In this document: one piece after another, positions 26,734-60,705 of the stretch | Position numbering within the stretch: the stretch's first letter is position 1 | Layout of the letters: each line of letters opens with the position of its first letter | Assembly: GCF_030263935.1 (NCBI RefSeq) | Contig: NZ_CP127162.1 | Coordinates: 1,683,501-1,747,500, forward strand | Direction of reading: 5' to 3' | Length of the DNA stretch: 64,000 nt | Source: Paenibacillus polygoni | GTDB lineage: Bacteria; Bacillota; Bacilli; Paenibacillales; Paenibacillaceae | Notes under the pieces: generated by a model | The model's database searches: none | Seen by the model: the letters and a program-made list of their open reading frames with translations, nothing else | Told to the model about the DNA's origin: nothing | Made by a program: the position numbers and the translations under genes

Positions 26734-27540
26734 TTACGCGGCGACTTTTTCCCGGAATTCGATTGGGGAGAGGTCGCCGAGTTTGTTTTGGAAACGTTCC
26801 TTATTGTAAAATGAAATATACTCCGTAATTTGGCTTCTTGCTTGTTCCAGATTATTAGGCTTTTCCAAATACAGCTTTTCCGTCTTTAAGTGGGAAAAGA
26901 ACGACTCGATACAAGCATTGTCATAGCAGTTTCCACGTCGGGAATGACTCCCTGTCAACTGCTTCTCTTCAAGCAACTTAGCATAGCTTTTCGAGGTATA
27001 CTGAAACCCTTGGTCCGAATGGAGCAAAGAGGGTCCATCTTTTAGTTGCTGCACAGTGTCCATAACGAGTTTTAGGTCATTGCGCTCGGAGAGTTCCCAG
27101 GCTACTATTTCGTTGTTATATAAATCCATTACAGCCGAGAGATAAGCAAATTCATGCCCAATCCGGACATATGTAATATCTGTCACAAGCTTCTGCACAG
27201 GAGCAGTCGCAGAGAATTCCCGATTTAAGACATTAGGGAACAAGGCCGATGGTTTGCGGCCACAAAACGGACGTTTCTTGCGAATAACAGAACGAATCTG
27301 AAGTTCTCTCATTAAGCGACGGACCTTCTTGTGATTCACAACGAAGCCTTCTTTTCCTAAAGCAGTACGCATTCGCTTGTAACCGAAATACGGACGAATT
27401 CGATGAATGCTCAAGATGTGTGCCTTTAGATCTGCATCACGATTTGCTCGTTTCTCTCGATGAACTAAATTCTTCTTCCATTTATAGTAGCCTGCACGTG
27501 ATATTTCAGCGATTCTACATAGCCAAACTACGGGAGCCAC
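26734..27540 (-). CDS. IS3 family transposase OrfB (DDE integrase domain)
   Basis: This phase contains the catalytic rve domain. The DDE triad is seen in VTDITYV, LLHSDQGFQYT and NACIESFF, and the second Asp and the Glu are separated by exactly 35 residues. The N-terminal part (SRAGYYKWKKN) is the HTH_21-like segment of IS150-type OrfB. It is probably made only as an OrfAB fusion by a -1 frameshift at 27615-27621, which removes the need for its own start. No internal stop is seen. Confidence 0.9.
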   Translation of the reverse strand: MAPVVWLCRIAEISRAGYYKWKKNLVHREKRANRDADLKAHILSIHRIRPYFGYKRMRTALGKEGFVVNHKKVRRLMRELQIRSVIRKKRPFCGRKPSALFPNVLNREFSATAPVQKLVTDITYVRIGHEFAYLSAVMDLYNNEIVAWELSERNDLKLVMDTVQQLKDGPSLLHSDQGFQYTSKSYAKLLEEKQLTGSHSRRGNCYDNACIESFFSHLKTEKLYLEKPNNLEQARSQITEYISFYNKERFQNKLGDLSPIEFREKVAA

Positions 27541-58966: not shown

Positions 58967-59020
58967 AAATCCTCCATCCGATAGGGCGCGATGTCGCTTC
59001 TGCTAGGATGGGGGATTTTT
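58967..59020 (+). terminator. intrinsic terminator of the arabinofuranosidase gene
   Basis: The segment 58967-58979 pairs with 59006-59018 (AAATCCTCCATCC against GGATGGGGGATTT, one mismatch), followed by TTT. Confidence 0.75.
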
Positions 59021-59037
59021 ATATAAATAAGACATAG

Positions 59038-59208
59038 GTAGATTTACTTTTTGCCCCTCAAATTAATAATCAGGGGTGGCTGAAAGGATATTTTGACCCC
59101 TTCAAAGAAATCTACTACTTCCAAACAAATAAGACAGGAGGTTTCGATAAATCATATGAATTTAATGGAGGCAGTAGATTTTTTAAAGCAATATCAGTCT
59201 CTCCCTGA
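59038..59208 (+). pseudogene. relic: C-terminal tip of a lost protein, probably a polymorphic toxin
   Basis: The frame from 59038 is open for 56 codons and ends in TGA at 59206-59208; TAG cuts it off at 59035-59037. There is no start. The translation is convincing protein, aromatic and Gly-rich (GWLKGYFDPFKEIYYFQTN, then KTGGFDKSYEFNGGSRFF). It overlaps the start of the immunity-like gene that follows, the arrangement of a toxin C-terminal tip with its immunity gene. Family not recognised; the toxin reading is inference. Confidence 0.4.
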
Positions 59209-59633
59209 TGATAGGGTATTGGAAACGAAGTCTGACATACTCGAAAAATATAACGAAGTTCGAAAATATTTTTTAGAGAATCCGAATCCCATTTGTATCC
59301 CATTATTTATAAATTCATATTGAGGATGTCCTATTAAAGTATTCTTCGGAACAAGTAATACCTCATTTAATCAAAGGGTTACATAGTGAAAAGTATGGTA
59401 TAAGGTATTGGAGTTCGCAAATAGCTTCTTCATTTCCTGACCAAAAACTAATTGAGCCACTTGCACAGTTACTAACAGACAAGGCGTCTGATCTAAGGTA
59501 TGCGGTAATTGTAGCATTAGCTGAAATTAATGATATGAGGGTTTTAGATGTAATAAAAAATGCACAAAAGCAAGAAGAAGAGACTGAAGTGATTGAGCTT
59601 ATAGAAGAAATTATGAGCAATTTAGAAATATAG
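59156..59633 (+). pseudogene. frameshifted HEAT-type immunity-like gene
   Basis: The N-terminal half starts at ATG 59156 (MNLMEAVDFLKQYQSLPDDR) and stops at TGA 59321-59323. The C-terminal half continues in another phase from 59313 to TAG 59631-59633 with DVLLKYSSEQVIPHLIKGLH and DLRYAVIVALAEINDMRVLD, helical HEAT-repeat style. Together they form one protein of about 155 residues, broken by a small indel near 59310-59320. HEAT-repeat proteins of this size are common immunity or accessory genes beside polymorphic toxins. Confidence 0.6.
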
Positions 59634-59660
59634 CTTGAAACAAGGACCTTGGTTGGCTAC

Positions 59661-59852
59661 ATGCCTTTCAAGTTTTTTGTTTTTTATAACGGTACGCTTA
59701 TAAAGCCTGATATTAGAATAAAAAGAAGGGAAAAACTGATAAATGAGGTAAATGAACAGAGAAGAAAAAATACATAATACGGGATTTCGCCTGTTTACTT
59801 TGGTTCTGGTGGTAATATAAGTGGGAAAATAGGAGGGGATAAAAGTAAATGA
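59661..59852 (+). pseudogene. second relic tip joined to the SUFU gene
   Basis: In one phase, an ATG at 59661 leads to KPDIRIKRREKLINEVNEQR, TAA at 59775-59777, and then resumes with YGISPVYFGSGGNISGKIG until TGA 59850-59852. The last stop overlaps the ATG of the SUFU gene (ATGA), which marks a translationally coupled upstream partner, now decayed. A CTTGAAA/TTTCAAG plus T-run hairpin (59634-59640/59666-59672) lies at the upstream edge. Confidence 0.35.
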
Positions 59853-60418
59853 ATAGTTATATCAATTTTTTAGAAAGCCATCTAGGTGAAATTGAGTATG
59901 GATGGAACAAAGACGCTGAAGACAATATACTCCCTTTCCACATTGTAAAGTATAAAAGGGGACCGTTTTCTGGAACTGTAACTTATTCAACTTTAGGTTT
60001 AAGCAAACAGAAATTGATTTCCCCCACTTCAAAAAAAGAAATTAGACAGGAGTTAATATTGGTTACGTACTCTAATTTTGGAGATAAGAATATTCCTGGG
60101 ATTCTACAACAAGTAGGATTACAAGCAATAAATAATAAAGTTGCTTATTTAAGGGGAGATGTAATAGGTCCATATGGAAAGATGTTTCAAGATTTTTGCT
60201 TAGAAGCGTTATATTCATCAATCCCTGTTTATTTCCCTGAAACTTTTCAGATTTTTGAAGTAGATGGTGATTTACCAATCATTCAAACATGGTTATTTCC
60301 AATTACATTCAATGAAGCAAAATTTATTAAGGAAAATGGGTGGGATGAATTTGAAAATAGACTAGTGGATCTTGATCCTGACTTAGTTGATTTTAAACGT
60401 CAAAGTATTATTCGATAA
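59849..60418 (+). CDS. suppressor-of-fused (SUFU) domain protein, probable immunity protein
   Basis: The 189-residue protein begins with NFLESHLGEIEYGWNKDAED and carries TVTYSTLGLS and the RQELILVTYSN strand, typical of bacterial SUFU-domain proteins. In bacteria these are frequent immunity proteins of polymorphic toxins. ATG follows AGGAGGGG. The coding region is intact and A/T-rich relative to neighbours. No toxin gene is present, so it is an orphan or protects against toxins from related strains; this role is inferred. Confidence 0.75.
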   Translation: MNSYINFLESHLGEIEYGWNKDAEDNILPFHIVKYKRGPFSGTVTYSTLGLSKQKLISPTSKKEIRQELILVTYSNFGDKNIPGILQQVGLQAINNKVAYLRGDVIGPYGKMFQDFCLEALYSSIPVYFPETFQIFEVDGDLPIIQTWLFPITFNEAKFIKENGWDEFENRLVDLDPDLVDFKRQSIIR

Positions 60419-60498
60419 GTATGATCAATCTTGATTCGCAACAGTGACATTTAAATATAACGATTACACTTACTACTCAATTTAAATTTACATACTAG

Positions 60499-60526
60499 AA
60501 GACTTCCTATTCAGGAGGTCTTTTCT
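60499..60526 (+). terminator. intrinsic terminator
   Basis: AAGACTTCCT (60499-60508) pairs with AGGAGGTCTT (60513-60522) with one bulge, then TTT. The rest of the gap up to rocD shows nothing else. Confidence 0.65.
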
Positions 60527-60705
60527 TTATTGTGCGTTGTTCCCGCTCGAATTGAGAAGGAATAGAATAAGCACACTACACCCGGACAGCCCTTCTATGT
60601 CAAAGAAAAAGGGACCAAACAATCAACAAACACACCATGATAAGGCTAAAAAGCATACATTAAATAGAGAACCCCGATTGTAACAGCACAAGGGAGGCGA
60701 AATAG

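Follow-up and report, generated by a model that had tools for sequence, protein, structure and literature searches.

Gene content and organization of the locus

The window is a stretch of 64,000 nucleotides from Paenibacillus polygoni (contig NZ_CP127162.1, positions 1,683,501 to 1,747,500), and coordinates given without a locus handle refer to it. Near its end are two immunity-like genes side by side, a broken HEAT-repeat gene and an intact SUFU gene, and the DNA at positions 59661-59852 separates them. The locus comprises the following features:

59018..60652 (no strand): variable island from the 3' end of a GH51 gene to rocD (both labels are those of the original prediction); the flanks match other genomes and the interval does not
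59156..59633 (+): broken HEAT-repeat immunity-like gene in two frames (PF13646; relative in genome G482)
59647..59673 (+): conserved terminator-like hairpin and T-run, recognized by fold and pattern search and missed by a consensus terminator scan
59723..59778 (+): spacer DNA resembling the stretches that separate RHS cassettes (match to L136), holding the "premature" TAA at 59775-59777
59803..59852 (+): 3' remnant of a decayed GH-E (HNH/EndoVII) nuclease tip, its TGA overlapping the SUFU ATG (alignments to L070, L004, and L002)
59831..59838 (+): likely SUFU ribosome-binding site, AGGAGGGG, within the toxin remnant (from sequence)
59849..60418 (+): intact SUFU immunity-type gene (PF05076, E 2e-15; single genome match; dN/dS 0.22 against L002)
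60497..60524 (+): terminator-like hairpin 3' of SUFU, with 12 pairs and a T-rich tail

The HEAT-repeat gene is split between two frames, the N-terminal part lying in one (the ORF listed at 59093-59323) and the C-terminal part, running to a stop at 59631-59633, in the other; PF13646 matches 59331-59630 (E 2.3e-9). The C-terminal piece found matches in 39 of the 398 genomes searched, its own included. Only that in G482 is close (63% over 96 residues, in an intact protein of 169 aa), the other 37 being HEAT proteins of 24-31% identity. In G482 the gene lies within a run of immunity-type genes about 6 kb behind hairpin-bearing RHS-type cassettes, one with a GH-E tip. The original prediction took this neighboring cassette for a further toxin-tip/immunity pair; it is a broken HEAT-repeat gene and not a tip.

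The SUFU gene encodes 189 aa and is the only PF05076 match in its genome, scoring 57.6 bits against a curated cut-off of 25. Two of the conserved Imm-SuFu elements listed in PMC3482391 (GxS and DxxR, plus two lone E positions) are present as GLS and DFKR in the aligned sequences, judged by eye. Of ten proteins run against NCBIfam, SUFU among them, none received a useful name.

The predicted A/T-rich patch was borne out: G+C is 30-34% across 59000-60499 and 44-49% on either side (500-nt windows). Between the GH51 gene and rocD, content varies between genomes, as seen in two relatives compared in detail. The flanks of G018 (96% identical) and G005 (88-89%) align with the window as far as 58978/59017 and from 60653 onward, and the interval between has no match. 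Both instead hold a reverse-strand permease-like gene (by eye), whole in G018 and shortened by another insert in G005 (L038:12983-15013), where it is followed by some 1 kb of other DNA carrying a 190-aa ORF; this second insert indicates that the interval was hit more than once. Pfam gave no match for the permease-like gene, and a single search of the P. polygoni genome, run without a positive control and therefore weak, did not find it there. Elsewhere in the window, at 26734-27540, a reverse-strand ORF has the look of an IS3-type transposase (by eye).

A hairpin recurring in Bacilli, often behind immunity-type genes

The hairpin at 59647-59673 starts 13 nt past the HEAT-repeat stop codon. Its fold z-score is -2.42 in the window and -5.20 in L002 (5842-5868), where it precedes the SUFU gene of Aquisalibacillus elongatus. 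Searching 398 Bacilli genomes, including that of P. polygoni, for the 27-base hairpin CCTTGATTGGCNNNNTGCCTTTCAAGG with up to 3 mismatches recovered it in 62 genomes and in 33 of 145 genera, while the reversed pattern was listed for two genomes (G079 and G153). P. polygoni has one copy at this threshold, which rules out a repeat of its own genome. At least six T occur in the 12 bases behind the hairpin in 28 of 30 pattern loci fetched. Hairpin and T-run have the form of an intrinsic terminator and are predicted to end transcription; since a scan of the locus found no promoter-like site between the hairpin and SUFU, such termination would leave the expression of SUFU unexplained.

The 65 distinct copies with such a T tail that we collected represent 27 numbered genera plus two named records (L002, Aquisalibacillus elongatus, and L003, Paenibacillus terricola). 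For 62 of these, a same-strand ORF of at least 45 aa ends no more than 220 nt upstream; the median gap is 25 nt and the median ORF length 133.5 aa, with 57 of the 62 ORFs within 60-250 aa. Pfam was run on 47 upstream proteins, comprising 45 of 51 ORFs and two others; those left out (L002, the second copy of L106, the first ORF of L107, L118, the second ORF of L128, and L129) were mostly near-duplicates, L002 and L106 excepted. Up to 11 belong to immunity families: five SMI1/KNR4, two Imm7, and one each of Imm32, Imm70, Imm74, and CdiI_2. The remaining matches are one Tox-SHH toxin and single instances of YxiF, UPF0167, DUF4274, DUF6572, a transposase, and AzlD, and at least 22 of the 47 have no Pfam match. 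As a control, 47 size-matched ORFs were taken from 20 shifted regions of the same genomes; no immunity or toxin family occurs among the 25 listed of their 81 families, nor in the 10 of 47 proteins listed in full. Because the genes before the hairpin are mostly short, and immunity families are frequent among them, a general Bacilli gene terminator is not favored; against this, two of the 47 are clearly of other kinds (AzlD and the transposase), and a variant stands behind holin-like genes in one genus.

An RHS core motif was found in 11 of 40 hairpin regions and in none of 20 control regions. L107, L109, and L112 repeat the order trunk fragment, tip, immunity-type gene, hairpin; Pfam identifies GH-E in one cassette of L107 and Tox-REase-3 in one of L112, while for a cassette of L109 it gives just an RHS repeat below threshold. 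An array with three hairpin copies is headed by an LXG protein with a GH-E tip (L108:12446-13831), showing that the hairpin is not tied to RHS.

Several further observations concern individual copies. A variant hairpin, CCTTGATCGGC..AGCCCTTCAAGG, follows short phage-holin-like genes (by eye), not immunity genes, in L096, L099, and L103, all of one genus. Pairs of serine-recombinase-like and IS110-like transposase genes (by eye) occur amid hairpin-bearing genes at L106:7811-9984, L106:13033-15173, and L113:528-2700, and the tail of apparently the same IS110-like transposase lies upstream of the GH-E tip in L070. Different genera have in common as much as about 280 nt of seemingly non-coding DNA after the hairpin (L003:8135-8420, L132, L134, L135, L139, L078, and others); in several copies it closes with a second hairpin and T-run, and Rfam gave nothing above threshold for it. 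L110, L111, L131, and L120 share another stretch, unrelated to the first, in the same position.

Rfam gave no match overlapping the window hairpin, even at E up to 10; one sub-threshold match falls at the second hairpin of L132 (E 0.84), and six array loci have none at gathering level. Covariation was discarded as proof of RNA structure because the stem is nearly invariant and the pattern itself had served to select the copies. We found no description of the hairpin in the open-licence literature searched, which is no proof of novelty; the word "terminator" is absent from the main texts of PMC3482391 (first 300,000 characters), PMC3150448, PMC8321402, PMC9484751, and PMC5361080. An 11-base part of the hairpin occurs in 12 papers, which by their titles deal with different topics.

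Homology breaks at the hairpin

All 65 copies were compared all-against-all by blastn, with genus labels assigned by hand; L002 and L003 were labeled separately, although either may belong to the genus of a numbered genome. In 163 of the cross-genus pairs the shared DNA extends less than 60 nt past the hairpin, and 17 have flanks too short to tell. In three, upstream homology ends at the hairpin (605-786 nt); in 42, downstream homology starts there (61-277 nt); in one, homology runs through. Homology therefore starts or stops exactly at the hairpin in 45 of 46 informative pairs, which represent four locus groups and three single pairs and are not independent. The 42 pairs in which it starts trace back to only four groups, with 10, 4, 2, and 3 loci, whose members have seemingly non-coding DNA in common after the hairpin. 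When the two named records are dropped, the counts are 33 starting, three ending, and one running through (36 of 37). Of the same-genus pairs, 11 share less than 60 nt, three are too short, one ends, seven start, and six run through. Between the window and L002, DNA similarity begins at 59646, at the hairpin, becomes patchy past 59687, and resumes from 59833 to the end of SUFU; the genes preceding the two hairpins have no DNA match.

From these stop sites we infer a short 3' boundary common to unrelated immunity genes. A rival explanation is that the hairpin is only a good terminator carried with cassettes, with no part in recombination, so that homology stops where cassettes happen to end. 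This has about an even chance of being right. The stem and T-run are those of a terminator, a match of 27 bp offers little length for homologous recombination, and the 42 pairs reduce to four locus groups. It accounts less readily for the same bases standing behind unrelated genes across 27 numbered genera and two named records (a likeness due in part to selection by pattern), for the scarcity of the reversed pattern, and for the near-unanimous break of cross-genus homology at the hairpin, with or without the named records. A more far-reaching possibility, which we put forward tentatively and with rather less than even confidence, is that hairpin and T-run form a Bacilli-wide cassette boundary, closing transcripts and serving as the 3' crossover with the trunk as the 5' one, so that unrelated cassettes could be swapped on RHS and LXG trunks in an integron-like arrangement.

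A spacer and a toxin stub upstream of SUFU

Positions 59723-59778 are 79% identical over 57 nt to L136:3709-3763 (E 2e-5), a spacer with an immunity-type gene before it and an RHS fragment after it; RHS Pfam domains flank it on both sides (ORFs of 698 and 269 aa). L136:3248-3628 and L002:4253-4633 are apparently the same immunity-type gene, so that L002 and the L136 RHS array share more than the spacer of the window.

The toxin-derived part is limited to about 59803-59844, corresponding to the last ~14 codons of a GH-E tip. We aligned 70 nt backwards from the SUFU start codon to the corresponding DNA of six other loci and compared the scores with 1000 base shuffles and with 1416 other 70-mers lying upstream of ATGs in the window. 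For L070, which has the best GH-E end, and L004, no shuffle and no other 70-mer scored as high; for L002, two of 1000 shuffles and none of the 70-mers did. L003 (20/1000 and 19/1416) and L041 (10/1000 and 11/1416) gave weak matches, and L044 showed no similarity (755/1000 and 325/1416). In unanchored local alignment against 500 dinucleotide shuffles, L070 alone stands out (2/500), followed by L004 (11), L003 (40), L002 (49), L041 (117), L044 (429), and L045 (493). The toxin-derived piece is thus above chance by anchored alignment and weaker by unanchored alignment, and nucleotide homology to the GH-E 3' end is best against L070, L004, and L002. Pfam, including PF14410, found nothing in the stub after the TAA and only a sub-threshold, unrelated family before it. 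The GH, E, and N motif residues of Tox-GH-E are not in the remnant, whose short span makes it a fossil rather than a toxin.

The same similarity could arise with no toxin remnant at all, as a conserved leader and ribosome-binding site traveling with the gene. The best-conserved stretch before SUFU, AAATAGGAGGG, does contain the likely ribosome-binding site, and most unanchored alignments are weak. However, in L003, L041, and L070 these bases code for the end of the GH-E tip, the similarity extends upstream of the ribosome-binding site to about 59803, and L002 retains a longer GH-E piece upstream of SUFU (score 63 to L070), so that we regard a mere leader as unlikely. We propose that a true toxin stub has been kept because it carries the likely ribosome-binding site of SUFU.

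SUFU relatives and their GH-E neighbors

Eleven loci with SUFU proteins of at least 45% identity were read (the window, L002, L003, L004, which is the same record as L042, L041, L043, L044, L045, L046, L070, and L071); another 107 homologues were available without context, and seven of their sequences were used. The SUFU genes do not sit in unrelated operons: a GH-E sequence or remnant lies just upstream in eight of the 11 loci, the window included. A PF14410 tip is directly upstream in L003 (E 1.1e-9), L004 (E 5.7e-7), and L041 (E 1.6e-9, seen in the wider locus L114). L044, L045, and L070 have GH-E-type ends recognized by eye from a common pattern, DWDxxHxPxWTNRxF...CxSCNR, that of L045 lying about 115 nt from SUFU, and L002 has a short remnant. 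The tip in the L041 locus is preceded by pretoxin HINT and TG domains (Pfam). The L003 tip protein has an RHS-like stretch by eye with no RHS Pfam match, and a separate RHS_repeat protein is encoded upstream. No GH-E sequence was seen upstream of SUFU in L043, L071, and L046, so the pairing is not universal (three of 11 loci lack it).

Imm-SuFu is listed as a partner of Tox-GH-E, firmicutes included (Zhang et al. 2012, PMC3482391). Together with the PF05076 match, the GH-E neighbors sustain the original view of SUFU as an immunity gene with a toxin-tip remnant in front of it.

Close SUFU relatives are rare. Of the 149 genomes searched only P. polygoni has one; 147 of its 148 relatives have no SUFU, and one has a protein of 26% identity. 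This last (L036), the only other SUFU found in the genus of the window, has a GH-E-like motif, EMGHKPGYEF, upstream (by eye). The closest SUFU among the genome contigs searched is that of the distant genus Aquisalibacillus (A. elongatus, L002; 88% identical), which, given the rarity among relatives, indicates transfer. Downstream of the gene, 60442-60488 is 81% identical over 47 nt to DNA 3' of SUFU in L070, so the transferred block extends past the stop codon. A viral or plasmid origin was considered and set aside: viral contigs contained no SUFU relative and no exact hairpin pattern, and plasmid records held five distant relatives (<60%).

Comparison with L002 gave dS 0.26, dN 0.058, and dN/dS 0.22, which points to purifying selection on SUFU since the two copies split. 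Lineage-specific codon changes are 10 non-synonymous and 6 synonymous in the window copy and 6 and 10 in L002; selection on the window copy may have relaxed recently, although the changes are few.

It is very unlikely that SUFU is a chromosomal protein of some other function lying beside toxin debris by chance. Among the loci of at least 45% identity, the three without GH-E upstream would fit such a protein, but it is at odds with the patchy distribution of SUFU and its transfer between genera, as well as with the GH-E neighbors in most loci and the immunity role published for the family (PMC3482391).

The P. polygoni genome contains no match to GH-E (PF14410), RHS_repeat (PF05593), or LXG in searches that were positive in B. 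subtilis; no RHS trunk gene was therefore found by PF05593, and SUFU is an orphan. The prediction of an orphan-immunity island in variable DNA agrees both with the missing toxin and trunk matches and with the different interval in G018 and G005.

Origin of the locus

As first described, the frame from the ATG at 59661 contains one premature TAA (59775-59777) and closes in a TGA (59850-59852) that overlaps the SUFU ATG at 59849 (ATGA). The further claim, that all of 59661-59852 represents one toxin tip, which this TAA inactivates and which is translationally coupled to SUFU, is highly improbable even with a real frame and overlap and a GH-E end in L070 that overlaps its SUFU start similarly (TAATG), because 59661 falls inside a hairpin with its own relatives in other genera, 59723-59778 matches spacer DNA between RHS cassettes, and toxin ends align to the last ~45 nt only. 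Its three pieces rule out the whole stretch as one toxin, most of it being terminator-like hairpin and array spacer.

We consider it very probable that 59661-59852 consists of hairpin, RHS-type spacer, and decayed GH-E stub, followed by an intact SUFU gene whose likely role is orphan immunity against GH-E toxins delivered by other bacteria. To produce it, an RHS locus elsewhere in Bacilli would have gained a new toxin-immunity cassette with the hairpin as its 3' end, the trunk anchoring the incoming tip-immunity pair on the other side during replacement. The older GH-E toxin body would have been displaced, its 3' stub and SUFU staying behind the hairpin and spacer. Such displacement would leave a hairpin, a spacer, a stub, and an old immunity gene, the arrangement seen in the window and in L002. 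The block of HEAT immunity gene, hairpin, stub, and SUFU may later have been carried between the GH51 gene and rocD, replacing the permease-like gene, with the stub persisting through the SUFU ribosome-binding site. We propose that SUFU acts on incoming toxins by binding their GH-E nuclease domain.

Comparison with known systems

As in the Tox-GH-E/Imm-SuFu pairs described in PMC3482391, a SUFU-family immunity gene here lies just behind a GH-E tip, toxin first, and a pretoxin HINT domain accompanies the tip in the L041 locus; unlike them, the window has only a stub of the toxin, in a genome without RHS_repeat, LXG, or GH-E matches. The heterogeneous polyimmunity loci of the same paper likewise join different immunity-like families without a working toxin (PMC3482391), whereas the window has just two genes, one broken, with a recurrent hairpin between them.

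In the type VI secretion (T6SS) immunity arrays of Vibrio cholerae, displacement that leaves old immunity genes behind new modules, once with an effector 3' end, was proposed from genome comparison (PMC5361080). Those arrays are perhaps due to homology-facilitated illegitimate recombination, under a section title that speaks of no specific integration sites (PMC5361080), while here the cassettes are RHS-type, in Bacilli, and the remnant lies behind a conserved hairpin. The immunity clusters of the staphylococcal type VII system (T7SS) are similar in that esaG genes recombine at conserved blocks of gene end and downstream intergenic DNA (PMC9484751); there the genes are paralogues, whereas here the hairpin is what otherwise unrelated upstream genes have in common.

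The GH-E/SUFU pairing is already known; what would be new, as we infer from the sequence comparisons, is the short shared 3' hairpin boundary as a junction. The locus is a clear case of how an orphan immunity gene originates, with stub, ribosome-binding site, and antidote kept and toxin and trunk gone. The hairpin matters more than the locus, since how unrelated tip-immunity pairs are joined cleanly at their 3' ends is a question for RHS and related systems. If the boundary is real, it would be testable in naturally transformable Bacillus, and the hairpin would be a sequence tag for cassette ends, toxin fossils, and new immunity genes in Bacilli genomes.
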